Positions 6,601 to 53,465 of a stretch of 64,000 nucleotides of DNA are shown here, one piece after another. Source of the stretch: Branchiostoma lanceolatum (Eukaryota; Chordata; Leptocardii; Amphioxiformes; Branchiostomatidae); assembly GCF_035083965.1 (NCBI RefSeq), contig NC_089731.1, forward strand, positions 4,379,001-4,443,000, given 5' to 3'. The translations under genes and the position numbers were made by a program. The notes under the pieces were generated by a model, which ran no database searches, was not told where the DNA came from, and saw only the letters and a list, made by a program, of their open reading frames with translations. Positions within the stretch are counted from its first letter, which is position 1, and each line of letters opens with the position of its first letter.

Positions 6601-9600
6601 CATGCAAGGCACAGAAATGCTTTCACCTCCATGAAAAATGGAGATATAGTTTTGGGTGTGTCTGTGTGTGTGTCTGTTTGTTTGTCTGTTTGTCTGTTTG
6701 TGTTCCCGGACTACTGTAGTCAGCATAACTCAAGAACCTCTTGATGGATAACGATGATATTTGGTATATGTGGGCGGGTGTTGTAAAGCTGAAATTCAAG
6801 GTCGATTTTGGGCCCCCTGGTATGTGACCTTGGTACTGCAGCAGATATTCCATTTTTGTATATCTTGTTTCTGTCAGTAATTATAGATGGTTACAATTTG
6901 GCAAATGTGGGACTCAGATTACACCTAAAATCAATGGCATTAGATAATAAAATTGATCTTGGAGTACTAGTGGCATTGGCAATTAACTTCAAGTTTAAGT
7001 AAAGATTTTTCTTATGTATGAATCATAATTAGAACTAGCCTTAGATTTTATCTAGATAATTACTGTTAAGTTTTGAAACTCGGTGTAAAAGAGCATGCTC
7101 CTTTTTATGTAAAAGTATTGACATATTTGTGGTGGGTTTACTTTTGCAGCAACCTCTCAAGACCCACAATTTTGTTACCAATTCTTTTCTTTCTTTCTAT
7201 TGTGGCCACTTTGTTTCTGTCACTCATAGCATTACTTTGAGATTTGCTTTCTGCAAAATGTTAACTGTTTTGTGTATGTTCCTTGACCTTCAGCCCGGTG
7301 CATTCGACCTTGCAGTGGAGACGACCAAGTCGGAGGTGTTGTTGCCCGACGTAGACGGTTCGCTACGAGGGGCCTGGCTTCTCACTGAGTGAGTCTGACT
7401 ACTGTAATTCGTGATTTTTTAACTGTAACTTAATCTTAGCTGATTATCAGTCACTTAGTCTACAGCTAAAATTTCATCATCGCAAATATTTGTTCACTAA
7501 TATTTGAGACAGTAGAATTAAGTGCCGTGACCAACTCCATTTCCCCCAACCGCTATATTTTCCTGCCGCTATATTTAAGTGATCTACAGTTACTGTAGTC
7601 TTTTCTTATTTGCTGATCAAGGACAATGTTAGACCAGGCTACTATTAGCAAGCAAGACTTCGAGGATGCCCTACATGAAGGAAACAAAGAAATTAGACGC
7701 CCTCCTTTTGCAGAGGACTTTCTCATTCCCTAATAATTGTGTATACATGACTGCACATGTGGTACACACACTTTCAGTAGTCTGATGACATTTCAAATTT
7801 CTTCCAAGCCTCTGTTTGCATATTATTGAACCATCACTAAAAATTTTGCTCTGAAATGTCAGAAAACAATTTCATAGAAAATGAATTGGTGTGGCCTATC
7901 TTACTTACAGCCAATTTTAGGATCCGGAGTAGTAGGACGGGTAGGACCATACATAACTCCCAAGGGATAGGTGCATAGGTGTGCTTATGTCTGAGAAAGT
8001 CATTATTTTGAATTATTAATGAGTAACATTGTCCCACACTGAATAATGTCATACAGAAAAGACCTAGTACTGCCATTAGACAATTTTGTTACCCATTTGC
8101 CATTTTACTTGTCTTTTCGATCATTGCTGGGAGTGATTGAATGAGTGAGTTTAGTAAATGAGTGAGTGAATGAGTGAGAGTGAGTGAGTGAGTGAGTGAG
8201 TGAGTGAGTGGGTGAGCATGTGAATGAGTGAGGAGTGAGTGAGTGAGTGAGCCTGTGAATGAGTGAGGAGTGAGTGAGTGGGTGAGCATGTGAATGAGTG
8301 AGGAGTGAGTGAGTGAGTGACCTGTGAATGAGTGAGGAGTGAGTGAGTGAGTGACCTGTGAATGAGTGAGGAGTGAGTGAGTGAGCGAGTGAGTGAGCAT
8401 GTGAGCATGTGAGTGAGTGAATGAGTGAGGAGTGAGTAAGTGAGTGAACTTCATCACATAAAACTGATGAAAAACTATTGTAAGATTAACATGACAGATT
8501 TAACTAGAAAATAAGTAGTATAAGCTCGCAAACAATGAGAGGAACGGAAAAAATTTAAAGCTCAGACCAGGAGACAACCCTACTAGTACGCAAGCGTTAA
8601 GCGGTTTGTCCAAGCCCATCACCTGTCTGACGCCGCTGCAACTGACTCAAGTTGAGACCGTGCAAGGCCCAATCACTGTTCACGATGACCATTGCATTTT
8701 TAAGCAATTTGTAACAACATCAACTTTAAAGAAGAAATCATGGTGAAATCAGCCAGTTTGCTTTAAAAAAACTCAAGATCTCTTTCAACAAAACACGCAA
8801 GTCAGAAAATGCCTCATAATGAGTTTTATTATTTTGATTGTCACATATAAAAAGAAGAAAATAAGAAGTAATAACATACTGATTTTGCAGTGTTATGAGT
8901 TTTTTTGCTGCTTGTTGTATTTTTGTTCAGAGTGAGAAAAGTTATTCTGTTGACATTTTTTGTGTTATATAATTGAGTCCCCGTGCTATACCGTACATCC
9001 CGTTTACGCTTGGAATCTCGTTTTCCGCCTCCATTCGGTAAGGACCTTTGCCATCACTTGTCGATGGGTTGCTGTTTCCGGCTTCTTCGTCTTCATATCC
9101 TGCTCGCTCTGCGTTGTCATCTTTCAGTGACTGGTCTTCTGATTGCGTAAATGCTTGTTTGATGATTGTTGCGTGTTGGTCAGTGGTGTTTTCCAGTGGT
9201 GTAGAATCTGCCTCTGTACATGTGTGGCCTCCTGTATCTTGTGGGGGGTCAGGACAGTCTACCCCATACAAGGGGATCTTAAAGTCGTCGTTTTGCGCTA
9301 GGTCTTCCTTGTAGGTCACTGCATACGGCTTGATCTCTGGTCCCTCACCTTCCTCATAGGCCACTGCATATGGCTGAATGGTGTCGTTGTCTCCTGATGT
9401 CTGGTTTTGGGCAAGGTCGGGTTGTCGGCCTGTTGCTGAGCTCCTGCCTGGTGCCTGCTGTCCAGCACAGTCAGAGTAGACCACTGCGCTAGCTGCATAC
9501 GGCTGGATTTTCTGGCTTCCTTCTGTTCCGGAGGAGGCAGGTCTATCATCTGTTCCATTCGGTTGGTTGTGGTCGGCCATGCCTGCACCACGCCAGCGTT

Positions 9601-12600
9601 TGTAGATGAAGATGGCGCCTACTGATGCCGACACAAGGAGGAGGGGCACAACAGCAGCACTTACCATGGCCAGTATATAGGTGCTGTTGTCATTCTTGTG
9701 GGCGATTTTGTCTCCCCCAAGAAGAATGATGATGTGGTCCATCTCTAGATCTGTTGTGTGCTGAGAGAGCGGCATGTCATTTGTGGATGACGACTCTGTA
9801 AAGTCCTCAGTTGAAATGGTGTGGTTCTTCACAGCAGCTGCTGTGATGGACATTTCCTCACGGCCCATGTACTCAATTTCCTCTTGTGGCCCGTCTGTAT
9901 TGTTCTGGCAGACATCTTTGCTAATGGAGAGCAGGACAGTTCCATTGACTTCAGCAGGTGATGCACACCTCAGAGAGTCGGGATCGGAGATGAGCTTCAG
10001 GTGTTGTAGCTTACATATGAACCATGTTAGGTTCTCGTCACATCCCAGCCTGTTTGCATCCATCGAAAGACGGAAGTTTGGGTTTTTCTCCAGGCGTGTG
10101 ACATCCCTTTCGATTAGAGCGATGTGGTTTTCCTGTAGGTCAGCAAATGTCAATGCTGTAGGCTGCAGAAGGGCATCGACTGGAACTGAAGTCAGTTGGT
10201 TCTGGGGCAAATACAGCCTGTCAAGGCGAGGCAGCCCACGGAAGGTATGCTCAGATATAACGGATATCTCGTTCTTGTCGAGACACAAAATCCGTAGGTT
10301 TTCGAGCCCGAGGAAAACATCAGAGTCTGCAGATAAAACAAGTTGGGTTCATCAGTTGGGTTCATCAATAATCAAAACAGGAGAAAACGGCAACAAACAC
10401 TAAGAAGGAATGCCAGTCATCGCAGGGGTGAACTTCTAACAAACCGTCTGTCACTAAGTTTTTTTCAATGAAGTGATCACATGGAACAAAAGTACAGTAC
10501 AAAATAATTGGCCAAGACCTCCTAACAAAGCAAATACATGCAGTTCGTATCTTTCACATTTTTTTAAAACAAAAACATCATAACTTGTTTGTATTTGATA
10601 CAACAGTTCCCAAAGGCATATCGTCAATGAGGTATATGAATGTCAGGATTCGAACTAAAGGACCTCTTTTGTTACCATGCAGGAGATTAGTATATTTACT
10701 CTCCAATTGCAAGCAGAGGTTGTTGGGGAAAATGAGGACTTTCTTGTCACATGCCCCGTTTTTATCAGCTCTCCCTAAAAGATGGGGGCTCACACGGATT
10801 ATGTTGGGGCGACTGCCAGTCCAACCCTACAACCGGTTACTGTCAGTGCCTGATCATGAACAATGTGGCCCGTCAGTTAGTTCCACTCTCATGGAAAAAC
10901 AGAAGATTGAAAACAGTCTTACCTAGACTGGAGATTCGGTTGTCAAACAGATAGAGCCTCTCCAACCATGGTAGGCCGATGAAAGCCCCAGGCTGGATCA
11001 TGGAAATGTTGGATCTTTGGATCTGCAGATGTACAAGGATTGAGAGATTTGGGAAGGACCGCTCCCGAAGCGTAGAGCAGTGTAGATGCCTGATGTAGAT
11101 TCCTCCAGCTTCTTTGAAGCCTGTCGGTATGGCGTCAAGACATGCTTCGTAGCTGTAGGTATGGCCTCCATGTCCAACCCAGCTGCAGGGTTGCAGCTCC
11201 CTGTTCCAATTGTCGTGAGGACAAACGCACATATAAGTGTTTGATTTGCAGCTCTCTGGGCACCTTATTTCAGCTACTACTGGCACAAGAAGTAGACGGC
11301 TCGAGGCCAGAAGAAACAGAACAAGTGCCTTGCTTTGAAGCATCTTGAGAAGTGAAGAAAACTGCAGGAGCTAAAGAAGCTTGCGGCAAACAGGACAAAG
11401 TGGAGAGAGTTGAAGAAGGGCTGATTGCAGCTGCAGGGTGTCCAGGCTACTGCAGCTGCAGGAGAACACAGTGGACTAACTTCTAACAGTAACTGAGAAG
11501 TGATGCGTGCCTCACTGAATTTTTTCATACATTTGAACACTGTACCTGCCTGCTGAATAGAGATAACTATATGTATGAGTATATGCCATTGGCAATTATT
11601 TTGTTGGAAATTGGTCTTTCACATCTTCAAGTTGATAATTGAGATGGGCGTCAGTTAATTTCCTCGTGCGTCACTTCACTTCATTTCATATCTGCTTGAA
11701 TATACATTTTGTACATTACATGCTTTGGCCTGTGCATATCATTCAAGTTTGATGCACTTGCCAAAGTTACAAACATTATGGCAAGGCTTCATTTTCAAAC
11801 TTAATTTCAGTTGCCTAAGTTAAAGTTTTTGGAGCATTTTTCAAAACATTTTGGAGCAGCTTTATGTGGTCGAAACAATGATGATGCAGTTTAATTTTGA
11901 TATTTTGCTGCAGAACTGTGGCAGAATATTTTTCATACATAGTAACATAGCTGTGCTTGGGAAATGCTGTAGTGTTGCTGTGTGGTAGCTTACTAGTACT
12001 GTGGTGTGAAGATTCACTTTTGCATCATAACGACAAGCCGCTGCTCGGCTAAATTGCACTTTTCGTGCTCTAATGGAACGTGTTCCAGTCCTTTAACGCA
12101 GACACATGTAAGACGTTAAGCCAGAGATCCAGTGTTTGAGTAGAGCAACACCTTGAGCACGTTTAAGAACCCACCACACTTCTTGTTTATAAAAAAGAAT
12201 ATATGCCAAGTCGTCCATAGAATCTACTTGTTGTGTTCTAGTGAGAGTTTTGGTCACTCAGCTGGGTTATCGCCTCAGCGCCTGGGGGTACAAGGAAGCG
12301 CCTAGGGGTACAAGGAAGCGGCTGGGGGTACAAGGAAATGAATCGATGTGACCGGACAATCTGTTGTTTGGAATGTCCCTGTAGCTGAACTGGTAGCAGT
12401 GTCATAGTTGAGGTCCATTGGTTCCATCTTAAGCTCTATAGTTGGTAATGTAGATTGGTTTATTTCCACTCAAGGTGGGCAAAAACTGTTGGTAGCCCAT
12501 GGGGCTAAATTGTACAGCTTAGTACTAATTAACATCCACAATTGCATACATTATTATAAAAGTCACACATAATCATACAGTATTCTAAAAGGCATTAATA

Positions 12601-21660: not shown

Positions 21661-21811
21661 CCTACATTCGGGCGGTCCAGATACGAATTGCGTAAATGGA
21701 ATTAAATCAGATGATTACACTGTCGGAAAGGGACACACAGATGTCATTTTGACAAATCACTTTCAGTGAATTGATGTAAAGTCTTTCTTTTTACACAGCC
21801 ATTAGACCATT

Positions 21812-25237: not shown

Positions 25238-25344
25238 ATGCAAATTAGTGCATCAAGCATTGTACTTTGTTTTGTTCCATGATCAACTGTAAACCAACCA
25301 AACCGGTTTTACTGCCGCCCGTCCACTCAGTAGCTGCATAAAAG
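25238..25344 (+). promoter_or_regulatory. Zinc-finger gene 2 promoter: octamer, AACCGGTT, TATA-like box
   Basis: ATGCAAAT (25238-25245, POU octamer), CCAAACCGGTTTTACTGC with palindromic AACCGGTT (25301-25308, a Grainyhead/CP2-type site), and CATAAAAG (25337-25344, TATA-like) come in this order. The same three blocks with similar spacing precede zinc-finger gene 3 and an orphan site at 28163. Confidence 0.6.
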
Positions 25345-25365
25345 AGTTGTCTAATCAGATTCTGT

Positions 25366-25441
25366 CATTTCCGACTCTGAGGACGCAAGAAGCGGTATTG
25401 CTGATGACACATCATTCAGTCTCTAGGAGCGTTACATTTCG
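25366..25441 (+). other. Probable non-coding first exon of zinc-finger gene 2
   Basis: CATTTCCGACTCTGAGGACG and CTAGGAGCGTTACATTTC are followed by donor GGTGAGTACAG and parallel the first exons of genes 1 and 3. It starts about 25-30 bp after the TATA-like CATAAAAG. Confidence 0.55.
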
Positions 25442-25721
25442 GTGAGTACAGTTTGTATTGTTTTATTGTAATGCCCTAGCAGTTTATGTATATATACCAG
25501 GAGGGAGCTAAACAGTCGAAAATTTTGGTAAGTCAAAAATACTCCAAATACTTGTGTTGGAAATTTTAGTTTAACTTTTTACAGCATGATTTCTACCAAC
25601 ACAGATGAACTTTCCTGTGATTGTGTTCTTATTGTAAGTCATGGTTTCAGGTGATTTGTGACAAATTATTCAGACGTTAAATGTATCATCCCTCTATTTC
25701 TTTCCCAGTCGTTCCGCCATC

Positions 25722-27110
25722 ATGGAAAATAGTGCCAAAACCAGCGAACATTTAACGAAGAATGCGGACGAAATAGCAGAAGGTTCCATCTTCAACATGG
25801 CGATGCATACTGGCACCAGTGAGAGACCACACACGGTCAATGAAACGAAGAAGAAACCGCTCAAATGTGTGGAGTGCAACAAACAGTTCGGTTGGCCGAG
25901 TGAACTGAAGAGACACACGCGGACACATACGAAAGAGAAACCGTATCAGTGTGGAAAATGCAACCGAAGCTTCAGTCATAAGGGTTACTTACAGACTCAC
26001 ATGCGGACACACACGGGCGAGAAACCGTATCATTGTGAGGCGTGCGGAAAACATTTCAGTCGGCTTGGTCATCTGAAAGAACACATGCGGACTCACACTG
26101 GTGAGAAGCCTTACAAATGTGAAGAATGTTGCAAAAAATTCAGCCAGCTCAGTCATCTGAAGGAACACGTGCGGACTCACACTGGTGAGAAGCCGTACGG
26201 ATGTGAGGAGTGTGGCAAACAGTTCAGTCAACTGGGTGATCTAAAGAAACACATGCGGACTCACACGGGCGAGAAACCTTACAAATGTGAGGAATGTGGC
26301 AAACAGTTCTGTCATCTGTACCATCTGAAGAGTCACATGCGGGCTCACACAGGCGAGAAACCTTATAGATGTGAGGAGTGTGGCAAACAGTTTAGTGACC
26401 TGGGTCATTTGAAGAGACACATGCGGATTCATACAGGTGAGAAACCGTACAGATGTGAGGAGTGCGGTAAGCAGTTCAGTGACCTAAGTCATTTGAAGAG
26501 ACACATGCGAGCTCACACTGGTGAGAAACCCTATCGTTGTGAGGAGTGCGGCAAAAAATTCTGTCAGTTGGGTCAGATGAGAGAACACAATCGAACTCAC
26601 ACTGGCGAGAAACCTTACAAATGTGAAGAATGTGGCAAACAGTTCATTCAGTTCAGTCATCTGAAGGGACACGTGCGGGCCCATACAGGTGAGAAACCAT
26701 ACGGATGTGAGGAGTGTGGCAAACAGTTCAGTCAGCTTGGCCATATGAAGCAACACATGCGGACTCACACTGGTGAGAAACCTTTTAAATGTGAGCAATG
26801 CGGCAAACAGTTCAGTGCCCTGGGTAATCTGAAGGAACACATGCAGACTCACACTGGGGAGAAACCGTATCATTGTGAGGGGTGTGGCAAACAGTTTGGT
26901 CAGTTGAGGAAATTGAAGTACCATATGCGGACTCACTCTGGTGAGAAACCTTATGGATGTGAGGAATGTGGCAACCAGTTCAGTCATCTGGGTAATCTGA
27001 AGAGACACATGCGGACTCACACTGGTGAGAAACCGTACAGATGTGAACAGTGCGGTAAAAGCTTTACTCGGTCAGCTCATCTGAAGAAACACATGGACTC
27101 TCACCAGTAA
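25722..27110 (+). CDS. C2H2 zinc-finger protein 2 (15 fingers)
   Basis: One coding exon encodes 462 residues, starting 13 bp after acceptor TTTCCCAG (ends 25708). The N-terminus [17 protein letters not shown]... with GSIFNM is shared with protein 3 (GSIFNM also present), marking recent paralogues. Fifteen C2H2 fingers with TGEKP linkers run to the C-terminus; the first linker is TKEKP. Many fingers have near-identical contact helices (for example QLGDLKK, DLGHLKR, DLSHLKR), which points to recent internal duplication. The product is expected to be nuclear and DNA-binding; no effector domain is seen. Antisense open frames across it are shadows of the repeated finger units. Confidence 0.94.
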
Positions 27111-28162
27111 ATAGCCATACATAACATTGTGACAGTTAGTAGTAGTATCTGGTATCACTAGATACTGGAAGTGTAGACCTTTGGGTAACCGAAACAAGGC
27201 ATGTACAATGAGGAGCAACCGGGAAATGAACGTTTTTACATGTGTGAGTCTTGATTCATGCATCTGCACGGCTCAAAGAGGATACTCACGATTGTTCTAT
27301 AAAGTGTTATAAATATGTCTATATAAGACCGGTGCCACCAATAAAGTCAGAATCTTAAAGCAATTGCACCATCATATGTTGTCATCGTAAGTTTCACGCT
27401 CGTTTGAACTTTGGTTATTATAATTCATGTACGTCACACCCTTCTGTAATGCTTACCTGTCGAAATGGAGGCAGGGGGTTTAGAGTAGAACTGTTCAGGT
27501 CCAAGATGCACCATATTCTTGTTAGTTTTAGAATAACTTTGTTTTCTGTCAAAGCTTTTCTTTGCACTATGTATTTTGCACTATGTTATTTCCAATACAC
27601 ATGTATGATTAGGACTTAACCACTTCATATTTTATTGTAAGGAAGAAAAACACAACGGCATACTAAGAAACCTGAAATAAACACCTTTTATCTTTATTTA
27701 TTTCTCTTCATATTTTCATTATCATACTTTTCAACTTTGTTGCTTCAATGCTCTGGTGTTTTACATTATACAAAATAAACATTATACAAAATAAATCAAC
27801 TACAGGATATGGTCTCTAACTGAATCAGACGTTTAAGATAGCACCCGTTGTCTTTCATAGAAATACCGAAAATTTGAAGACTAGTGGAACTAATATTAGG
27901 TTTCAAAAAGTATCTAAATTCTTACTACAAAGACAAAATACATGTACTATATCTTGTTGTCTTCAGACTCGCTGCCAATTCACTGATCAAAGTCAGTGGA
28001 TGCTGTTTGCTTGAAACACCCGACTCTGTTACTGTTAGAGACCATATGCCGTTTTATGTTTTACTTTATATTTTGTACTTTGTTGTCTAACCTTCATCAA
28101 TGTTGATTGCCATGCTTACGTATGCTAAGCTATCGTCTTTCATAGTTGTCTGATCTCTCCCT
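27111..28162. other. 3' flank of zinc-finger gene 2
   Basis: There is no gene. The AATAAA in GCCACCAATAAAGTCAG near 27341 is a plausible poly(A) signal for zinc-finger gene 2. The rest is AT-rich and anonymous. Confidence 0.5.
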
Positions 28163-28290
28163 ATGCAAATCAATGCATCAGGCCCTGTACTTTGTTCTGT
28201 TCCATAATCAAGTTTTAACCTACCAAACCGGTTTTACTGCCATTCGTCCACTCATCAGTAGCTGCATAAAAGACGTGCCCACTCTGACTC
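28163..28290 (+). promoter_or_regulatory. Orphan copy of the zinc-finger promoter module
   Basis: ATGCAAAT (28163-28170), AACCGGTT (28226-28233) and CATAAAAG (28265-28272) repeat the promoter blocks of genes 2 and 3, followed by CACTCTGACTCTG of the first exon. Instead of a donor and a gene, the sequence passes at about 28306 into the 3'-side module seen after gene 1. This looks like the promoter of a zinc-finger gene whose body was deleted. Confidence 0.55.
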
Positions 28291-28305
28291 TGTTATCAGT
28301 TTTAA

Positions 28306-29330
28306 AGGTATGAACTTCTATCTCTTAAAGCTCAAATCAGTTTAACTGTTTTAGTCAATCAGAACATATAAGTTAGTAATTGAAGTTTGTGTACTTAACG
28401 CCTGGAATACTAGTAATGTCTGTAAATACACTGACTAGTAACTTAGTACAAACCAGCGAAAGGCGCGTTAAAGATGCGTTAAGATGTTGTTTACTAACCC
28501 ACGTATTGTTATCATATTGGAGTTTTCTTTCTTTCTCACAACCAGTAATGTCTCCCACCTGCTTACGGTCCGATGTCTATCACACACCTTGGTCAGAGCT
28601 CCTGACTACATACTAGTACATCGGCTACATAAAGCGGCCAGAAGCTCTGCTCCTGGTTTTGACAAAATAAAGGAAAACTCCAATATCCTATGTTGTAGCA
28701 ATCTGATTAGAATTAATGTGCTGGTATTAGTATTAGTTATCGATTAACATTCAATTTGTTTTCTGTTATAGGACTTGACCATTTTGTGTATTGGATCATT
28801 TCCAATAAAATAAAAAACAATTGATACTTTGTTGTTGTTTTCTTGTAAGGAATACTAAAAAAAAATTCTAAGTTAAACTTATTAGTTAAAAGTTAAAAGA
28901 AACTATAAGTAAACATCTTTTCTCTTTTAATGTTATCATTAGATATTCATCTGATCGTCGTTCCCTCCGTTGTTTCTAGTGTGTGCAAGTGTGTGTGTGT
29001 TTGTGACCAGCATAGGTAGAGAATTCGTTGATGGATAATTATGTTAGATGTAGTTGGCATTAAGGTAGGGCTTGGCGAAGGGAATAAACCATTAAATTTT
29101 TGGCCCCATATCGCCTTTTTACGATACTGCGGTGGAAAGTGTTTCTTTCATTTTTCGTGTTCTGAATACATTACGATCGTGATTTCAAACATTTTTAGTA
29201 ACAGATAGCTCTTGGAGAATGGAGTAAATGTCAGAGAATAGTACGAGTCTTTATTTCTCCTAGCAGACTATTCCTTTTAATGCCGTGTTTATTTGCCAAG
29301 CTTTCAATATATGTTGTCTGACTCCTCCTT
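28306..29330. repeat. Second copy of the zinc-finger 3'-side module
   Basis: Phrases of the 23.8-24.7 kb region recur in the same order: TATCTCTTAAAGCTCAAATC, GTACTTAACGCCTGGAATA, the CGGCTACATAAAGCGGC foldback centre, GATACTTTGTTGTT and TTCCCTCCGTTGTTTCTAGT. No gene is seen. It shows that the duplicated unit includes flanks as well as coding sequence. Confidence 0.6.
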
Positions 29331-29437
29331 ATGCAAATCTGTGTATCGAGCATTGTACTCTGTTTTCTTCCATAATCAAGTGTAAACCTACCAAACCGGT
29401 TTTACTGCCGTCCGTCCTCTCGGTAGCTGCATAAAAG
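29331..29437 (+). promoter_or_regulatory. Zinc-finger gene 3 promoter: octamer, AACCGGTT, TATA-like box
   Basis: ATGCAAAT (29331-29338), AACCGGTT (29394-29401) and CATAAAAG (29430-29437) occur with nearly the same spacing as in the gene 2 promoter. The first exon with GACGCAAAGAACGG and donor GGTGAGTACAG (donor at 29544) follows. Confidence 0.6.
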
Positions 29438-29757
29438 ACTGTCCACTCTGAGCCGGTCATTCTGGCTCAGAAGACGCAAAGAACGGGACGGGTGTTGCCG
29501 CTGGAATATCCTGCAGTCGCTTGAATTGGAGCATTACATTTTGGTGAGTACAGATTGCCATAACTTCTACTCCAGCGTCTTACGTGCCTCGTTGAACACA
29601 AGACAACAGAGACCAATAAACGGACTGAAATGTGGCATCTCATAGTAGAGATTAAAGTACAGTTAGTAGGAGTACTAGGTATTTTGATAGAGTTGAAGAT
29701 GTTTTCTAAGCTAGCTGACTCGTTTTAGCATTATAGAATTATTCCGAACTATTATGT

Positions 29758-29906
29758 TAGGCTCTACCAGCCTCCGCGGGTCGCTGGGAAAATAGAAAAA
29801 AATGGCCAAATAGAGCCAATTGTGTGAAGGGAGTCGGCTACGGAGGAAGGATCAAATATGCGCCTGCAAATGTTCTCCCTGTAGCCGGCGCGGTTAATAG
29901 AGACTA
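29758..29906. mobile_element. MITE, TAGNCTCTACCAG family, perfect 9-bp target duplication
   Basis: It starts TAGGCTCTACCAGCCTCC and ends GTTAATAGAGACTA, with interior GGGAGTCGGCTACGG as in the other copies. CTATTATGT flanks it exactly on both sides (29749-29757 and 29907-29915). It ends 34 bp before the acceptor of zinc-finger gene 3. Confidence 0.8.
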
Positions 29907-29953
29907 CTATTATGTAACTTCTCCTTTCTTTTATACACAGCCAGGCGACCATC

Positions 29954-30769
29954 ATGGAGAACCGAGTAGAAATCTACCAACATCCGGCTGAGAATGCGGA
30001 CGGACGAGGACAAGGTTCCATCTTCAACATGACGACGCAGTCTGACACCGGGGATAGACCAAATGAGGAGTCTAACAGTCCACAAACGGAAAATAAACCG
30101 AGGAAAAAACAATGTGAGGAATGTGGTAAGCAGTTTGAAAAACTGAGTAATCTGATCAGACATATACGGGCTCATACAGGGGAGAAACCGTACCGATGTG
30201 ATGTGTGCGGCAGACAGTTCAGTGCGCTGGGTGATCTGAAAATACACATGCGGACTCACTCTGGAGAAAAACCATACAAATGTGAGGAGTGTGGCAAACA
30301 GTTTAATCAGCTGTGTAATATGAAGAAACACATGCGGACTCACACTGGTGAGAAACCGTACGGATGTGAGGAGTGTGGCAAACAGTTCAGTCGCATTTTC
30401 AGTGTGAAGTGTCACATGCGAACTCACAACGGTGAGAAACCGTACACATGTGAGGAGTGCGGCAAACACTTTAGTCGACTGGGTCATCTGAAGACACACA
30501 TACGAACTCACACTGGTGAGAAACCCTATGGATGTGAGGAGTGCGGCAAACAGTTCAGTCAGCTGGGTGATCTGAAAAGACACAAACTGACTCACACTGG
30601 TGAGAAACCGTACAGATGTGAGGAGTGTGGCAAACAGTTCAGTCGCCTAGAATGTGTGAAGATCCACACGCGGACTCACACCGGTGAGAAACCGTACAGA
30701 TGTGAACAGTGTGGTAAAAGCTTCATTCGGTCAGCTTATTTGAAGAAACACTTGAAAACTCATCAGTGA
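29954..30769 (+). CDS. C2H2 zinc-finger protein 3 (8 fingers)
   Basis: One coding exon of 271 residues starts 13 bp after acceptor TATACACAG (ends 29940). The N-terminus [17 protein letters not shown] followed by GSIFNM is clearly related to protein 2. Eight C2H2 fingers follow with TGEKP, SGEKP or NGEKP linkers, the last ending [12 protein letters not shown], the same closing pattern as protein 2 ([12 protein letters not shown]). It probably acts as a nuclear DNA-binding protein. It is shorter than its neighbours, consistent with loss or gain of finger blocks by unequal exchange. A poly(A) signal AATAAA lies at 31239. Confidence 0.93.
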
Positions 30770-32414: not shown

Positions 32415-35400
32415 ATGCCGCGATGTAAGGCACTGGTTCTGTTACTGCTCGCCTTCAGGTATCTACTTCTTGTGACAGAAGCAACTGCCAGGTGCCCAGA
32501 CAGCTGCAGAACATACAGAAATAATTTTTCGTGTCGCTGTCCTCGTAACGATAGGAAGGCTTCCTCCTGCAGCTGGTTTGGATATGGAGGATATACGCAC
32601 AGCTTTGAAGTATGTCTTGACGCCCTGCCAACTGGCTTCCTCAAAGAAACTCGAACAGTGTACATCAATTATCTCCGCTCCTCTACGCTTCTGGAGCGGT
32701 CTTTCCCAAACCTCTCAAGCCTTCGACATCTGCAGATACAAAAGTCAAACGTTTCCACGATCCGGCCAGGGGCTTTCCGAGGTCTATCATCACTGACAAG
32801 GCTCCATATGACTGACAACCGAATCTCCAGTCTAGGTAATGGCGCGGTCACATTCTTTGTAGGCTGTTGCACAATTTTGATGTAGAATTTTCAAAAGCGG
32901 GCTGTGACAGACTTAACCACAATCAAGGAGCTAAGACAGCCCATTCCAAGTCATAAATCAATAAAAACAAAACATGAAATATCTCAATAATCTACACGAA
33001 TGACATTGTCAAAATCTAATATCAAGTAAGTTAGAAGTTCAGCCCATTTGATGAATACATTTCTTCTTTTGCTGTTTTCTTATTGATGAGTCCTATTTTC
33101 TTTCATCTGCAGATTCTGATGTTTTTCTCGGGCTCAAAAGCCTAACACAATTGTTCCTCCAGAAGAATGTAATCTCAGCCATATCAAAGCACGCCTTCCG
33201 CGACCTTCCTGCCCTGATCAATCTACATTTGTCCAGCAACCAACTGACTTCTGTGCCGGTTGATGCAATTCTGCAGCCCACAGCATTGACAGTTGCAGAC
33301 CTACAAATGAATCTCATCGCACTAATCGAAAGCGATGTCATGCTTCTTGTAGGAAACCCGATGTTTCGTCTATGGTTGGTAGCAAACAAGCTGCGATGTG
33401 ACGAGAACCTGACATGGTTCATCTGTAAACTACCACACCTGAAGCTCATCTCTGATCGCGACTCTCTGAGGTGTGCATCACCTGCTGAAGTCAAAGGATC
33501 TGCCCTGTCCTCCATCAGAAAGGGCATCTGCCCGACAAATACAGACAAGCCACGAGAGGGAATTGAGTTCATGGGGCATCATGAAATGTCAATCACAACA
33601 GCTGCTACAGAGAAGAACGGCACATTTTCTAAAATGAACACCACCTATCTGTCCAACCACACCGTTCCTACTGAGAACTATAAAGAGTTGGCACCCACAA
33701 ATGACACGCCACTCTCTCATGATCATCATACAACAGAGATGGACCATGTCATCATTCTTCTTGGGGGAGACCCAACAACCCAAAAGAATGACAATAGCAC
33801 CTACATATTGGCCATGATCAGTGCTGTTGTTGTGCCTCTCCTCCTAGTGTTGGCAACATCAAGTGTCCTCCTCTTTTACAAACGCTGGCGTGGCGCAGAT
33901 ATGGCCAACCACGACCAACCGAATGGAACAGACGATAGACCTGCCTCCTTCGGAACAGAAGGAAGCCAGAAGATTCAACCTTACGCAGTGGTCTACTCTG
34001 ACTCTGCTGGACAGCAGGCACCAGGCAGGAACTCAGCAACAGGTCGACAACCCAAACTTGCCCATAACCAGACATCAGGAGACAACGACACCATTCAGCC
34101 ATACGCAGTGGCATTCGAGGAAGGTGAAGGACCAGAGATCAAGCCATACGCAGTGACCTACAAGGAAGACCTAGCGCAAAACGACGACTTTAAGATCCCC
34201 CTGTATGGGGTAGACAGTCCTGACCCCCCACAAGATACAGGAGGCCACACAGAGGCAGATTTCACACAACCAGAAAACGACACTGACCAACACGCAACAA
34301 TCGTCAAACAAGCAATCAACTCATCAGAAGACCAGTTACTGCCAAAAGATCCCAGCGCAGAGCGAAGATATGAAAACAAAGAAACCGAAAACGGCAAACC
34401 ATCGACAAGTGATGGCAACGACCCTTACGGAATGGAGGAGGAAAACGAGATTCCAAGCGTAAGCAGGTTATACAGCAAAGGATCGCAGCCCACTGGTTCA
34501 GAAGAGAACAGCAAATCTCACATCCTGTACAACCCAGCTCATGGACAGCTTGAGAGTAAGGACAGTACATCTCATGTCCTGTACAACCCAGCTCATGGAC
34601 AGCCTGAGAGTAAGGACAGCACATCTCACATCCTGTACAACCCAGCTCATGGACAGCAAGAGAGTAAGGACAGCACATCTCATGTCCTGTACAACCCAGC
34701 TCATGGACAGCCTGAGAGTAAGGACAGCACATCTCATGTCCTGTACAACCCAGCTCATGGACAGCCTGAGAGTAAGGACAGCACATCTCACATCCTGTAC
34801 AACCCAGCTCATGGACAGCAAGAGAGTAAGGACAGCACATCTCATGTCCTGTACAACCCAGCTCATGGACAGCCTGAGAGTAAGGACAGCACATCTCATG
34901 TCCTGTACAACCCAGCTCATGGACAGCAAGAGAGTAAGGACAGCACATCTCATGTCCTGTACAACCCAGCTCATGGACAGCTTGAGAGTAAGGACAGCAC
35001 ATCTCATGTCCTGTACAACCCAGCTCATGGACAGCCTGAGAGTAAGGACAGCACATCTCATGTCCTGTACAACCCAGCTCATGGACAGCAAGAGAGTAAG
35101 GATAGCACATCTCATGTCCTGTACAACCCAGCTCATGGACAGCCTGAGAGTAAGGACAGCACATCTCATGTCCTGTACAACCCAGCTCATGGACAGCAAG
35201 AGAGTAAGGACAGCACATCTCATGTCCTGTACAACCCAGCTCATGGACAGCCTGAGAGTAAGGACAGCACATCTCATGTCCTGTACAACCCAGCTCATGG
35301 ACAGCTTGAGAGTAAGGATAGCACATCCCATGTCCTGTACAACCCAGCTCCTGGACAGCTTGAGAGTAAGGACAGCACATCTCATGTCCTGTACAACCCA

Positions 35401-35514
35401 ACTCATGGACAGCCTGAGAGTAAGGACAGCACATCTCATGTCCTGTACAACCCAACTCATGGACAGCCTGAGTGTCCAACAAGCGAACCTTCAGTGCTGT
35501 ATGGAGAAGACTAG
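32415..35514 (+). CDS. LRR-TM B: LRR single-pass membrane receptor with 18-copy tyrosine repeat tail, two exons
   Basis: Exons 32415-32835 and 33113-35514 (phase-1 GT-AG) give 940 residues. I prefer the ATG at 32415 to 32391 because it gives the same 421-nt exon 1 as LRR-TM A. Order: signal peptide, cysteine cap (RCPDSCRTY, CRCP, CSWFGYGGY), LRRs (NVSTIRPGAFRGLSSLTRLH, LFLQKNVISAISKHAF), LRRCT-like cap (LRCDENLTWFICKL), glycosylated stalk, transmembrane helix at about 370-395. The tail has IQPYAVVYSD, IQPYAVAFEE, IKPYAVTYKE and IPLYGVD, as in A. From residue ~609 to ~928 come 18 copies of ESKDSTSHVLYNPAHGQP, varying at few positions (V/I, P/Q/L, A/T). The repeated tyrosine suggests multivalent binding of an intracellular partner; this is inference. 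Confidence 0.9.
34507..35480 (+). repeat. 54-bp coding minisatellite (18 LYNP units)
   Basis: The 54-bp unit encodes 18 residues, so copy-number change keeps frame. Units differ at one to four bases (CTTGAG/CCTGAG/CAAGAG; GTCCTG/ATCCTG). Sub-blocks such as P-then-Q alternation suggest that expansion proceeded by multi-unit duplication. The first and last units grade into unique sequence (ENSKSHILYNP and HGQPECPTSEPS). Confidence 0.95.
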
Positions 35515-35587
35515 ATGGACACTGCACCTCCCCATGAGCAGCGATAGACCGTGTCAAAATGCTTGTCTAGAAAAACAATAATCAGCC

Positions 35588-35593
35588 ATTAAA
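35588..35593 (+). terminator. Possible poly(A) signal of LRR-TM B
   Basis: ATTAAA lies about 75 bp after the stop codon. No canonical AATAAA is seen close by. Confidence 0.35.
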
Positions 35594-36010
35594 ACAAACT
35601 AGACTTAGTCATCATTCACTTATTAACGTATGGTAGTTTTTTTAACACAGCATTATCATTTGTGCTTTGGACTAGGAAAAAATAAGTAGATATCCATGTT
35701 ATTCAAAAGACCTTAATCTTTTTGCACAGTTAGGACAGGTAAAACAAGTTTGACTTTGCAGAGGCCCACTGGCAGGTAGATTCAATGTTATTTCCGTGAT
35801 TCTTGTACATGTATTTTCAACTTATTTCACTGAGAATATACAATACAAATAACTCTTTAATTGGTCTTTAGAGAAATGTATGCAGTACTGTACGTTGTGT
35901 AGCTTGTTTTATTTTGTATACATACATTGTACATGCATACGTTTAAGACATGTTTTTATTCTCTCAAACTTAAAAAGTACAGTTAAGAAGACAGTACTAC
36001 AACATCAGAA

Positions 36011-36300
36011 GTGTTTCAACATATTCATATTGAGTCCCCGGGACATAAAGTGACACTTGACAAGGTGCACATTTTGGATAAGGAACAGGACTGGTTTGTG
36101 AGGGGCGTGAAGGAGGTGATTTACATCAGGGCTCATCACCCCTCCCTGAACCGCAACGGTGGAAGATTCCGTCTGCCCGCTGCATTCGATTCACTGCTGA
36201 CGTCATCACGTCTCCGACTTCCCGGCGTTCAACGCAGTGGATCGAACATCTGGAGTATCCAGCCGAAAATTTATGGTGAGTTCAACTCTTGGTGTTGGAT
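36011..36300 (+). pseudogene. Relic of a Penelope-like retroelement C-terminus
   Basis: The frame reads VHILDKEQDWFVRGVKEVIY, then IRAHHPSLNRNGGRFRLPAA and FDSLLTS. This resembles the segment after the GIY-YIG endonuclease of Penelope-like elements (W-x2-RGVKEAIYIR...PSLNR-GGR-LP). The GIY-YIG core and reverse transcriptase are absent, so it is a terminal fragment. Confidence 0.55.
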
Positions 36301-36910
36301 CAAAGTTTAAAATTTTCCAATATGTACTCCACCCAACACAGATGAGCTGTCATGCGAAGCAAAATTAAGGTTACAACATCCCAAGGTATTTGGGAAAACT
36401 TAATTATAAGATTTAGCAAACCATACAGACAGTACAAAAAAACTCTTCAGCAACAAGATGGAATAATTAGAATTCACTCCCAATGTCATTGGGAGTGAGT
36501 GATTTCCATTGAAAATTTCTTCAAGGTGATATGAAGCAAACCATACAAACTGCGAAAAATTCTCCAACAGGGAGGCACAATGAGGTATATATATATATAC
36601 ACTGGGAGGGATCAACGTTCAGAGATCTAGGAACAAAGGGAAACTAAAACGTGCATCCAGGCCAGAAAATTTACATGCACAAAAACAACTCTGTTCCAGC
36701 ACAATACGTCATGACGTCAATATGCGGATAAAGAAGAATCGAATAGGCTTTAAAAAATTCTCAATGTACTCCTGAAAACTTGAACACAACATGATGATCA
36801 TACAACCTGGACAGCATGACACAGATGAAAACTAAAAAAATAGACAAAGAAGCTCAAATGTCCTAAGGAAAGAGCAATAACTTGTTTGAATAAGTCTATG
36901 TGCCATAATC

Positions 36911-36955
36911 TTTGTCCAGCAACAAACTGACTTGTGTGCCAGTTGACGCAATGTT
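36911..36955 (+). pseudogene. 45-bp scrap of an LRR-TM exon 2
   Basis: TTTGTCCAGCAACAAACTGA and what follows up to GACGCAATGTT matches LRR-TM B around 33230-33275 (the SSNQLTSVPVDAI segment) with a handful of differences. No surrounding LRR sequence remains. Confidence 0.55.
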
Positions 36956-37444
36956 TCATTTTATATTTTTCATTGTGAATTCAACGGAGGAACTTGAATT
37001 TTTCAACTGCGTCGTGCCATCTTGATGATTTTTCCTGTGGCGACATGGTTATATTCACGCAATCTCACATCCTACAATTTGGTCTGAGCTTTGAAATACA
37101 CAACTAAAAAGTGAATGGCCTTACTGCTCAATTACGAGACTTGCGCTTGCAAACCCAAACTACAAAGGCTGCTAAAAATATGTAAAATTCTGCTGAGACA
37201 GGCTGAAACATTTTTTTCATATTCTTTTTGTAAAGGGACAGCTTTCTTCAAAATGGAGGAGAGATTTGAAAACAAAATTGGCATAGTGATTTTTATTGCC
37301 GTGGCGACGGTACCTGCCATGTAAGCAGATCCCACCTGCTTCCCGGTGTTTAAAAGGACAGACTGGTCAATTTGCGAGCCTGCCAAAAACCCTCATACCG
37401 ACCAGTCACTTTCTACCGCCCTTTCTGAGAGATATAAGACTGAG

Positions 37445-39686
37445 TGCCGAACTCTTGCAATTACAACAAAGGCTACAATGAATCTGCTGAAATGACAAAT
37501 TTACAAGCAGGAAACTGTTTTCTCAATACTGAATGGCTGGGGTTAAAAGGGTTGCAGCTTAGGAAATTATCGTCTCAAAAATTAACTTTCATCAATTCCT
37601 TTTCTCTTAGACGCCTTGTTCTTGTAGAAGCGGGGATAACTAAGATAGACAACGCTACATTCAAAGTTTTTAGGGGATTGAAGGAATTATATCTAGACTA
37701 TAACTTGCTAACGCACATCCCTAGCAACTGGCACAGCGGCACGTTTGTGCAGAGGGAATATAAGCTCAACCATCTTTCGATTTCCCACAATAAGATCTCC
37801 AGTTTAGGTCCTGCTTGTTTTCAGAACCTTTGCAGTTTATTGTCATTACATCTAGGACACAATGATTTGAGAGAAATACAGAGCCAATGGTTTATCGGTC
37901 TGGACAAACTAGAAGAGCTATATCTCAATGAAAACAAAATTGAAACAGTCTTATCCGACGCGTTTGAATCTCTGAACCAACTGAAAGTTCTAGATCTAAG
38001 TTACAATGACATGGTGTGTCTACAAAGAGAAAAAATTAGAGCTTTTGAAAACATCGATAGAGTCGTACTCGCCGGAGAAGATCTGACCTCAACAGCGAAC
38101 GTTGTGTGGAGTATGGCATGGCGCGCTGTGTTTGAACACTGCAACCCGTTGTTGCCATGGCAATGGCTACAGCTTTCCGCCACGCAGTGGATGCGATTCG
38201 ATGTCGCAGACATGGTTTTTCACATCAATTACGTAGAAACTGAGGAAAGGTTTGACATTGATTGGTTTAGCGTGTTGTCAAGGAAGCATTACGAAAAAAA
38301 GGAGTACCCTTGTATGCGCCTGATAGAAAGCTTTAGTTTTGCGGCCATCTCTCCTTTTGTCGTTATAGCAACGAACAGTCAAGAAAATATGAACAATAAA
38401 TTTTCACCTCAATGTGTGGAGGCATGGGAAGGGTCGGGTGGTATCACTTTTCGTCCAGTTTACGATTGTCCGCCGTAGGAACAAGTGACAAACCATCTGC
38501 ACCCAGATCGGAAGGTTTTAGCATTGTAGTAACCACGCTGAAAAACCAAACGGTTGTCTCTCAAAATACATCTTCGCACATGAACGGTAGCAGAAATAAT
38601 GACTCTTTGACAAGAGTCGCCTGTTTTGTTATCATTCATGACAAAATGAATGAGTTGTTTTTCAACGTGTACACCACAAGTAAAGCAGGTGACACTAAAT
38701 CATGTTTTCCGTTTAAGACTGTTAAAAATGAAACCAAAATGGCAGAAAATAATAAAACGCTTGACAATAGATATTTCTCCAGCCCTGGTAGCTCAGACGA
38801 TAGAATGCATAGATCGAACAACACAACATCCTCCCCTCCATTCGGTTTCATACTGACCACTCAAACTGAGAATGCTACAGTAGGGTCAACAGGTGGATTA
38901 ACGTTGTTTTCTCTCCCACATACAAATGTGAGTTCAAATGTGGACGGCGCCACGTACATAACGATTCCTCTGATAGTGGGCTCTGTAGCGGCAGGTCAGG
39001 TCTTTCTAATGATTTGCGTTGGTTTGTTATGCTACAGAAAGAAAAGAAATAATGTAAATCCATCCGGCAGTAGACAAGTCCTTCCTTTATCAAAAGTCAA
39101 TGTCACAGCGGCCTTACAGAGTAACCCAATGTACAACGGTAAGACGGCAAGCACACTTCAGAATCACAGCACGCAGGATTCTTGTCAAGCAAACGACAAC
39201 ATGTACAATGAGATAAACGAGGATGAACTGTACGTTCCTCATGGACACAGCTACTGCGAAATAAACGATGAGGAGGCCAGCAGTGAAGATAAGCGACTGA
39301 CAGACAACTACGATGACGTCACTGATACACCAGAACAGGCCTCACGAAACGAGAACCTTGAGGACGATGACTCTGTGACTTTCTATGCAGCTTCAGCTAA
39401 AGTTGTGTTACCCACTGCTAGAAAAGCCGCAGCTAAAACTTCGCTCTATGAGGAAGGTTCAAAGACAAAAGTTTCAAGACAAAAGCAGACAGCTTATAAA
39501 CTGACTGACTTGAAGTTCGCAGATGCATCAATTGTCAAATCTAGAACAACGGATGATGTCGCGAGTGACTCCACAGAGGAATTAGAAACGGACCACTCAG
39601 GAGGGCTTGGGGATACCAGTGTAGATGGTACTAGAGATGTCGAATTGAGAGTCGAAAACATGCCGAAAACATGTCGGAAAGACTAG
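37445..39686 (+). CDS. LRR-TM C: LRR membrane receptor with ITAM-like tail; frame interrupted at about 38.44 kb
   Basis: The first frame (to TAG at 38476) encodes LRRs (LRRLVLVEAGITKIDNATF, LKELYLDYNLLTHIP, LNHLSISHNKISSLG, LEELYLNENKIETVL, LKVLDLSYNDM) and a C-terminal ectodomain part with few cysteines. A second frame, open from 38400 to 39686 in the -1 register, continues with a Thr/Asn-rich stalk, transmembrane helix ITIPLIVGSVAAGQVFLMIC and basic stop KKRNN, then an acidic tail. The tail has MYNEINEDELYVPHGHSYCEI. Removing a 38-bp GT...AG stretch (38441-38478) would restore the frame. Alternatives are a sequencing indel or a pseudogene. The N-terminal start and signal peptide are not resolved. 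It is distinct from A/B in sequence and has no intron in the LRR part. Confidence 0.65.
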
Positions 39687-41995: not shown

Positions 41996-44900
41996 ATGAT
42001 ACCCAGGATGTTGGACGTCTACCTGGTGGTGCTTGTTTCCCTGTCGCTCTTCCACGGGACCTCGGCTTGTCCGAAGTACTGCGAGTGTTTTGACCTGGAG
42101 AAGGACGAGTACTCGGTGTCGTGTCACGGGCCGAACATCACCGCAATCCCGAGGGATATCCCCAAGAACACCACATACATGGATATAAGTAAGGCAACTT
42201 TAGCCTCTACCAGGCTCCACAGGCGACTGGAAAGAGTAGAAATTGGCCAAATACACAAAAAAGAACATACAAGAGAAGTTAGTCTGCTATAGGGGTACAG
42301 TCTAGGATGGCATATTGGACCCTCTCTCCGTAGCCGACTCCCTTAGCATACTATTCACTCTATTTGACCAATTTCTACTATTTTCCAGCCATCCGCGGAG
42401 CCTGGTAGGGGCTTAGGCAACTTAGCAATGATATCAATTTATGGGGAAAAATAACGATATAAGAACACTTCAGTTCAAGAATTATGTCATACATTTCTGT
42501 ATCATAAAAAAGACATTCATAAATCAGCAGTACTCCCTTGGAAATCAGTTACTCAGTTAACTGAAGGGACTACCCTTAAGATTTATAAATACATAAGTAA
42601 ATAAATGCCAGACAGTATGATATATGCATGCCCTTGGACCTATTTATTGTCTTATAATGTATGGGGTTGCTTTTTTTTACAATATATCATATATGACTGT
42701 ATGCTATCTTTTTGTTTCAAATAAAGTCCAATAAAAATACAACTTAGCAATGCTGAGTAGTTTTGCGTAAATAAAGCCAATATAGCAGTTTTTGTTGTCT
42801 TTGTTACAATACCATTATATTAACTAACGAGGGTGTTCCGTACAATAGGTTTCACACCGATAACCATGCTTCGACGAGGCGATTTTGTCGACATCCCCAA
42901 ACTCCAAGAGCTGAATGTTTGGTGGAACCTCAATCTGACGATGGTTGAACTCGGAACGTTCGACAACCTGCCTACCATCACGGCGCTCGGACTCTACAAC
43001 AACTCTTTCACCAAGCTGCCGCCCGGCCTGTTTGACAAGCTGACGAATCTCACCCGATTTGACGCCCATAACAGCAGGTTAGAGACCATTCCTCGTGGCC
43101 TGTTCACTGACCACCCTTCTCTCCAGGAGATCAGCCTTTTCTACAACAATATTGCTCATCTAGAGGCGGGAGCTTTCAGTGGCATTCCACACCTGAAGGA
43201 ATTGATTCTCTTCGAAAACGAACTCACTTCTCTGGACAAGTCCGTATTCGTGGGTTCACCAAAGCTGACGTCACTAAATGTAGATGGCAACTTCATCACC
43301 AGTATTGACAAAGATGTCTTCTCAGAAACACCGCATTTCCAAAACTTAAACCTGAATGACAACAAAATCCACACCATAGAGGCGGGTGCCTTTTCACCAC
43401 TCCGTCACCTCCAATCAGTGTCCCTCTCAAGTAATCAGCTTACCAACATCGAGGGTATTTTTCAAGACCTCCTAGAACTCGAAACTATCACTCTGGATGG
43501 AAACCAAGTCTCAAAAATTAACGAGACTACGTTTGTCAATCTTCCTGGACTTACCTCACTGTCCATGAACTACAATAACATCAAAGAAGTGGTGGATCAT
43601 GCGTTCAAAGATCTTGACGGCCTTCTAACTCTGTCCTTGGATAATAACGAGATTGAAGAAATCAACCTGGTGGGTCTGAGCTCCCTGATGACGCTGTATC
43701 TTGAATCAAACAAATTGAAATATTTTCCAGCTAATCTACTATACGCCTCACAAATACAGACGCTGTCTTTGGAGGATAACCCGATCCAAGAACCACTGGA
43801 AAATGGCCAATTTTTAGCCTTGTTCAGGTGAGCTAGCGATATAGATGTGATAGAATTCTTCCTACACGATAGAATAATATCATACACAGAGAAATTCTAT
43901 TCACGCGTATTGTCACCAGAGTGCATTATGGTGAAGGTATCAATAAGACTTAAAATCACCACTTACAAAACTGATATCTATCCACAACTTTAAACGTTTA
44001 ATTACGTTTGTTAGTCTCCATGCTACCAACATGTATAGTACTGAGATACTTAATGAACAAATTAGTCAGTTGTATAAAATTGAATACTTTTGATGCATTT
44101 AAGTTCGCGTGGTTTTTATTTCGCGGTCGGAGAAAATGGAGTGTTCGGGGTGGTTTTAAGTTCGCGTTTGAAACTGTTACAATAGTAGCGCTACAGTCAT
44201 AGGTGGGCAAAACGTTTCGCGGCGATAGTTTTAAGTTCACGCTGAAGAACTTACTACGAAAACCGCGAACATAAAACCACCGCGAACATTTCTGCATTTA
44301 CAGTATGATATTGACAATGTATTAACAGTTGTACATAGGCTGTACATGTACTATATATGGCTAAAGCATGTTGTTCACATCTCTTCTAACCAGGCTCTCT
44401 CGGCTTTACCTGTCGAACATTACCTGTCTGAAGTTGGCGGGAACTCTGAACCCCAAGGCTCTGTGTGGTTCAGACGCCCTAGACGAGGTGTGGCTGTCCT
44501 ACAACGGACTTTCCACTCTCCCATCTACAATCTTTGAGTGTACTCCAGTCGTGTCCACTCTCTGGCTACAGAACAACAACCTGACGGAGCTGAGTCCTCG
44601 CTTGTTCCACGGGATGACCGAGCTGACCTGGCTGGACCTGTCCTATAACCGCCTCAGCCGCCTGGATCCGGACATGTTCACCGGGCTGGACAAACTCAGA
44701 ATCCTAGACCTCACAGGTGGGGACATTTGGTGGTTTGGTGTGGGTTTTTTTACATTTAAAGCGTTATGTCACAGGTCTGTGGTACGTTGGCTACCTCACT
44801 GCGACCTAAATTGGAATTTGTGGTACCCTTGACTTTGTAATAGGACAAACTCAGACTCTTAGATCTCACAGGTGGGAGAAGTTGGCTGCTTGAGTGTTTA

Positions 44901-53153: not shown

Positions 53154-53465
53154 GGGCAGTTTCGATAGCCCAGATAGTTTAGAATGATAATAACAGGTTT
53201 GATACAGTCATTCCTGTCAGGCAAAGTATAGGCAAACAACTACAAGTATCAATAAAGTATATATACTAATATAGTGACAGGGCCTTTAGTAATAGGGTGA
53301 TATCCCTGCATACATGTAAGGAGATGAAAGATTTACTGTAACAGTACTATGAGTATGAGGAAGTCCTGAATCAAGTCCTGAAAAGAATATTTGGGATTGT
53401 GTTCTAAAGCTATCATTTTCAATACAGTTTTGTCACTAACCAACCCCTTTTTTTCATTTCCAGCA

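Follow-up and report, generated by a model that had tools for sequence, protein, structure and literature searches.

Among the described systems that come closest to the locus presented here is BbLcLRR of Branchiostoma belcheri, a type I LRR receptor with several tail tyrosines. In human Jurkat T cells, three of these tyrosines are reported to be phosphorylated by Lck, and the receptor to bind SHIP1 and, to a lesser degree, SHP1/2; the sites DDYATV and HDYSEV are loose ITIM matches, while HDYDDP was termed ITIM-like (PMC8211107). Since these sites function, non-canonical tyrosines can work in such tails (PMC8211107). A second B. belcheri protein, the membrane LRR receptor FrLRR, has been linked to the SH2 adaptor Grb2 (PMC10199209). 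Outside amphioxus, tandem tyrosine segments are described in CagA, in which the number of EPIYA-C segments varies and multiple copies are said to increase phosphorylation and SHP-2 binding, although, at later times, the strains were comparable in elongation (PMC5591203), and the title of another CagA paper gives IL-8 secretion as occurring "irrespective of the number of repeats" (PMC3567036). An in-frame minisatellite in an intracellular receptor part is found in DRD4, in the form of the 48-bp coding VNTR of exon 3 (PMC7031506). Coding repeats of 5-20 aa with near-identical copies are a common feature of at least one invertebrate proteome, and the Nematostella survey that describes them indicates that most such tandem-repeat proteins are predictions (PMC2805694).

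Here, we describe a probable receptor gene of Branchiostoma lanceolatum, LRR-TM B, whose predicted cytoplasmic tail ends in 18 near-identical, tyrosine-bearing units, together with its inverted paralogue, LRR-TM A. Both lie in a window of 64,000 nucleotides (contig NC_089731.1, positions 4,379,001 to 4,443,000 of the forward strand), the coordinates of which are used throughout. The features concerned are as follows.

8942..11343, minus strand: LRR-TM A, 601 aa, without the array and with unrelated last residues (gene model and alignment)
32415..32835, plus strand: LRR-TM B exon 1, signal peptide and N-terminal LRR part (ATG at 32415, donor CTAG/GTAATG)
33113..35514, plus strand: LRR-TM B exon 2, LRRs, stalk, transmembrane segment, entire cytoplasmic tail and stop (acceptor CTGCAG/ATTC, TAG ending at 35514)
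33796..33885, plus strand: transmembrane segment, about aa 369-398, followed by KRWRG (hydropathy)
33886..34512, plus strand: cytoplasmic tail upstream of the array, with 9 tyrosines (IQPYA/IKPYA block at about aa 401-540, then a poorly conserved stretch)
34513..35484, plus strand: array of 18 units of 54 bp, or 18 aa (TRF and codon register)
35485..35514, plus strand: C-terminal EPSVLYGED and stop, including Y937, a possible degenerate 19th unit

The predicted two-exon model of LRR-TM B has a phase-1 intron and a continuous frame, its spliced product being 940 aa long. Comparison of this product with Pfam identified LRR_8 in three stretches (7.1e-22; 77.4 bits against a cut-off of 27), and the best 60 of the 130 matches of exon 2 to PDB sequences, which include the Nogo receptor, LRIG1 and LRRC15, all fall in the LRR part. 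No Pfam match above cut-off was obtained for the cytoplasmic tail. The Kyte-Doolittle profile peaks at 2.54 at aa 372, in the transmembrane segment; elsewhere, a value of 1.6 is exceeded only in windows that begin at aa 2-7, in the signal peptide. LRR-TM B has the make-up of a type I LRR transmembrane receptor, its signal peptide and transmembrane segment being called by hydropathy alone, and is, on its predicted sequence, probably a cell-surface receptor of this type. Because a signal peptide is followed by a single transmembrane segment and then by KRWRG, the array is predicted to be intracellular, as the initial annotation had proposed. The tail and array are acidic and fall on the disordered side of the Uversky line (a matter of composition only), with 28 tyrosines in total, 9 upstream of the array, 18 within it and one downstream. 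A polyA-like ATTAAA stands at 35588, downstream of the stop.

TRF placed the array at 34508-35472 (period 54, 17.9 copies, 94% matches, 0% indels), and its score of 1734 is the highest among the 45 rows returned for the whole window. Read in codon register, it consists of 18 units of exactly 54 bp each (34513-35484), devoid of indels and enclosed in a single frame that stays open between the proposed acceptor at 33113 and the stop ending at 35514. The 54-bp repeat array is real and far beyond chance, and these data bear out the initial annotation, which had announced an in-frame 54-bp minisatellite encoding 18 copies of an 18-residue unit with one tyrosine in the context SH[VI]LYNP[AT]. That context is present in 18/18 units (V in 15 and I in 3; A in 16 and T in 2) within the consensus [KT]SH[VI]LYNP[AT][HP]GQ[PQL]ESKDS; the LYNP codons, CTG TAC AAC CCA, are identical in every unit, and successive LYNP tyrosines, one per unit, are always 18 residues apart. 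As 4 of the 6 frames across the array are free of stops, the open frame is not in itself evidence of coding; in the gene model, tandem units of a length divisible by 3 lie within exon 2, which makes the array a coding minisatellite. A search of the rest of the window with two units as query revealed no further copy, the best blastn match being of 12 bp (E 0.3).

The first 17 units comprise nine distinct sequences, with a mean pairwise identity of 0.953, while in unit 18 the final 12 bases have diverged from the array consensus. Leaving these 12 bases aside, bases confined to a single unit occur only in unit 1 (two) and unit 16 (two), and the A-to-T replacement of unit 17 is also present in unit 18. 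Codon 13 is the most variable (CCT in 9 units, CAA in 5 and CTT in 4), and the other variation outside the diverged end of unit 18 amounts to V/I, A/T, one H/P and one T/K replacement, plus silent changes. Codons 11, 12 and 14 (G, Q and E) are invariant in all 18 units, just as the LYNP codons are. Units 2-4 equal units 5-7, giving an exact run of 199 bp at a shift of 162; as 2482 of 20000 permutations of the unit order also repeat a block of 3 unit types, this is not strong evidence of block duplication. Overall, the pattern of the units is consistent with a minisatellite homogenised by unequal exchange, of which it is no proof. From a list, made by hand, of 11 distinct base changes among the units, 5 leave the encoded residue of the consensus unchanged, where 25% would be expected (binomial tail 0.115; with the doubtful T-to-A at base 39, seen in CAA only, scored as a replacement, 0.287), and the probability that none of the 11 hits the 12 LYNP bases is 0.063. 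Selection on LYNP cannot be shown, either from the silent excess or from the invariance of this motif.

Beyond the last unit, Y937 (in VLYGED) lies exactly 18 residues past the final LYNP tyrosine, in register. The in-register identity of the C-terminus to the unit is 17/39 nt, the best of 54 offsets, a value that 232 of 20000 codon shuffles reach, and the gapped protein alignment is not significant (179/2000 shuffles); the case for a degenerate unit 19 is suggestive only. Y594 (SRLY), the final tyrosine common to paralogue A, was considered as a degenerate unit 0 and rejected (410/1000 shuffles for DNA, 635/2000 for protein).

LRR-TM A has its intron at the same split codon position as LRR-TM B. 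Each of the 9 tyrosines that precede the array in B is aligned with a tyrosine in A, and A carries one more, opposite F475 of B. With nine further tyrosines, all aligned with the paralogue and mostly in or near the conserved block, the tail of LRR-TM B resembles a tyrosine-signalling tail even apart from its array. Conservation is uneven along this tail: (i) the three windows of aa 401-540, which hold IQPYA, IKPYA and IPLYG, show amino acid identities of 0.87-0.93 and dN of 0.04-0.07, (ii) aa 521-580, just upstream of the array, show an identity of 0.57, dN of 0.30 and dS of 0.25, and (iii) the last window, to aa 607, shows dN of 0.27 and dS of 0.37, including columns beyond the end of homology. 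The homology between the genes ends at position 34473 of B and 8993 of A, 40 bp upstream of the array, and B 35485-37000 yielded no plus-strand match to the 3' flank of A at E up to 10. Of the claim that the paralogue lacks the array in an otherwise similar tail, the former part stands, whereas the comparison behind the latter is weak, as homology ends before the array and the 3' ends are unmatched. For the same reasons, the absence of the array from A is not readable as a simple gain or loss.

Over 197 tail codons, A and B share a nucleotide identity of 0.87, with dS of 0.23 (Nei-Gojobori) or 0.22 (YN00), against 0.76, 0.45 and 0.37, respectively, over 351 ectodomain codons. With codons treated as independent, this difference in dS was reached in none of 400 permutations, and the ectodomain dS was not above the tail dS in only 2 of 400 bootstraps. 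The tails of these inverted paralogues are closer than their ectodomains, as if the tails swap sequence while the binding parts diverge; gene conversion of the tails would be one explanation of their lower dS.

Several other features of the window, all on the plus strand, deserve mention. Between the two paralogues (21806-30769) lie three long ORFs with C2H2 zinc-finger linker arrays (HTGEKPY, recognized by eye). A segment of 42 bp at 36911-36952 is 90.5% identical to 33228-33269 in exon 2 of LRR-TM B (E 3.4e-12); it is not among the tblastn matches of the B protein at E 0.05, and is perhaps, from this resemblance, the relic of a third receptor copy. Adjoining the array gene, 37444-39686 contains an LRR ORF (LRR_8, 4.2e-27), overlapped by a second, tail-like ORF that abounds in tyrosine contexts (NPMYNG, NMYNEI, ELYVPHG, DNYDDV and TFYAAS). 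ORFs of an LRR-plus-Ig gene (LRR_8, 2.3e-82; I-set, 8e-16) occupy 42824-46035, near the receptor cluster. Farther downstream, the ORFs at 53382-61637 encode an acidic, proline-rich and tyrosine-rich protein (YEDVLLPP, VYEDVLV, DYENVAS, HEYHDIYESI), presumably resembling an FYB/ADAP-type adaptor; a Pfam scan of two of these ORFs found no family at E 0.01.

To characterize the tyrosines of the tail, we scored seven patterns, namely ITIM, ITSM, NPxY, YxN, YxxP, YxxM and YxxPhi. None of them matched within the array, which accordingly contains no YxN, YxxP or YxxM for docking of Grb2, Crk or PI3K, and the entire tail, array included, is devoid of ITIM ([SIVLT]xYxx[ILV]), ITSM (TxYxx[VI]) and NPxY, in agreement with the earlier view that LYNP is neither a canonical ITIM nor NPxY. 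Outside the array, one YxN (YEN, Y560) and one YxxPhi (Y431) were found. Among known families, the OCRE domain, an octamer aromatic repeat, fell short of its cut-off (23.4 against 24.7 bits) and the period of the array is 18, not 8, while the CagY type 1 repeat reached 22.7 bits against a cut-off of 25.8, its best stretch being 17 residues; both were rejected. Orthology with BbLcLRR was also rejected, since the 7 Pfam families found up to E = 1 do not include WSC and the three mapped tyrosine contexts do not occur. The whole array has no match up to E = 1 among the 177635 distinct sequences of PDB. Six units (108 aa) gave no pattern match in viral_contigs and 10 in genome_contigs, none of the latter confirmed by tblastn, neither being an animal collection. 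In the literature, a search combining LYNP, tyrosine and phosphorylation yielded, among the matches listed, mainly papers on cancer drugs and signalling, no title on such a repeat (Lynparza being a chance match), and no such array is described in the titles and abstract openings, with few subscription journals, retrieved for amphioxus receptors, repeats and phosphotyrosine tandem repeats.

Our best reading, held tentatively and at somewhat less than even chances, is that an in-frame minisatellite encodes a disordered, multi-tyrosine docking tail. In this scheme, the final exon of a gene for a type I LRR receptor harbours a 54-bp minisatellite that has undergone expansion and homogenisation, a pattern visible in the units themselves, whereas the process, unequal exchange or replication slippage, is inferred. 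The outcome would be a disordered C-terminal tail extension in which 18 tyrosines, or perhaps 19, follow one another at even spacing, nearly all of them in [VI]LYNP. Upon engagement of the LRR ectodomain, a Src-family kinase, whose preference is suited by Leu at -1, might phosphorylate these tyrosines; the phosphorylated repeats could then recruit several copies of one SH2 protein, and the number of repeats would set avidity or signal amplitude. The substrate domain of p130Cas, with its many serial YxxP tyrosines docking one SH2 type, offers a parallel, albeit with a different motif and no homogenised minisatellite. By analogy with BbLcLRR, an inhibitory outcome through SH2 phosphatases is plausible, although the motif gives no indication of it. 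BbLcLRR itself is set apart from LRR-TM B by its description as a protein of 699 aa with a WSC domain, for which the available text mentions no repeat array (PMC8211107). FrLRR differs in its predicted GPI anchor and the lack of a cytoplasmic tail, and its link to Grb2 is possibly indirect (PMC10199209). The likeness to CagA is an analogy, with no homology claimed, CagA being a bacterial effector with EPIYA instead of LYNP (PMC5591203), and DRD4 differs in carrying 16-aa units in the third loop of a GPCR, with known population polymorphism where a single sequence is at hand here (PMC7031506).

Against the docking reading count the position of the array, beyond the homology with the paralogue and after a poorly conserved stretch, and the invariance of G, Q and E, which equals that of LYNP, as well as the failure of LYNP to fit any of the seven patterns and of the unit changes to show selection. 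The first of these points also favours a neutral expansion, which we place close to docking and regard as nearly as credible: the array would be a minisatellite, in frame and harmless, that arose where constraint is weak, at the 3' end of the last exon and outside the conserved block of the tail, and the identity of its tyrosines would reflect recent homogenisation. The divergence between units, at about 5%, is below that between the paralogues (13% in the tail and 24% in the ectodomain DNA), and 4 of the 6 frames across the array are open. Like the array, the Nematostella repeat proteins have 5-20 aa units and several open frames, and they are mostly coil or disordered, with few shared across lineages; H and Y are among their enriched residues, but E and K, both present in the array unit, are depleted (PMC2805694). 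They also differ from the array in not being on receptor tails, and Branchiostoma is not named in the main text of that survey (PMC2805694). What a neutral origin leaves awkward is that no unit change touches the LYNP codons and that each tyrosine follows V/I-L in a receptor tail already rich in tyrosines, weak points both.

A role for the array that needs no phosphotyrosine, as a long disordered spacer, a crowding brush, an element for turnover or trafficking, or a repeated short motif acting independently of phosphorylation, would suit its low hydropathy, acidity and repetitiveness, as well as the G, Q and E codons as invariant as LYNP; we nevertheless deem it decidedly unlikely, as the array lacks YxxPhi and NPxY and its one aromatic residue per unit would be left unexplained. 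Least probable by far, and in our judgement very improbable, is that the array is absent from the mature protein as drawn, being spliced out or shortened, or that the assembly misstates its copy number. The donor-like sequence GAGA/GTAAGG occurs in 17/18 units and an acceptor-like CAACCCAG/ (CCCAG) in 16/18, and all 120 donor-acceptor pairs would excise 36 + 54k bases (36 to 792) in frame; judged by the consensus of splice signals, however, the donor is without the expected G at -1 and T at +6, and the pyrimidine tract of the acceptor is poor. As to assembly, repeats reportedly confounded the B. floridae assembly at VCBP loci (PMC2632668), but the distinguishable unit variants and their mixed order in the present array argue against a simple assembly duplication.

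Taken further, the docking reading would make LRR-TM B a receptor with heritable and mutable valency, in which alleles differ in their counts of phosphotyrosine sites, RNA-level trimming might add to this variation, and innate immune responses would be tuned through a new [VI]LYNP motif and its adaptor; this extension we hold to be rather unlikely. If the sites are phosphorylated, the locus would amount to a titration of multivalent SH2 signalling set up by nature, its alleles differing chiefly in how many identical docking sites they carry, and receptor tails could shift signal strength through repeat length, not point mutation. If the array is neutral, it shows the tolerance of a receptor tail for repeat sequence.
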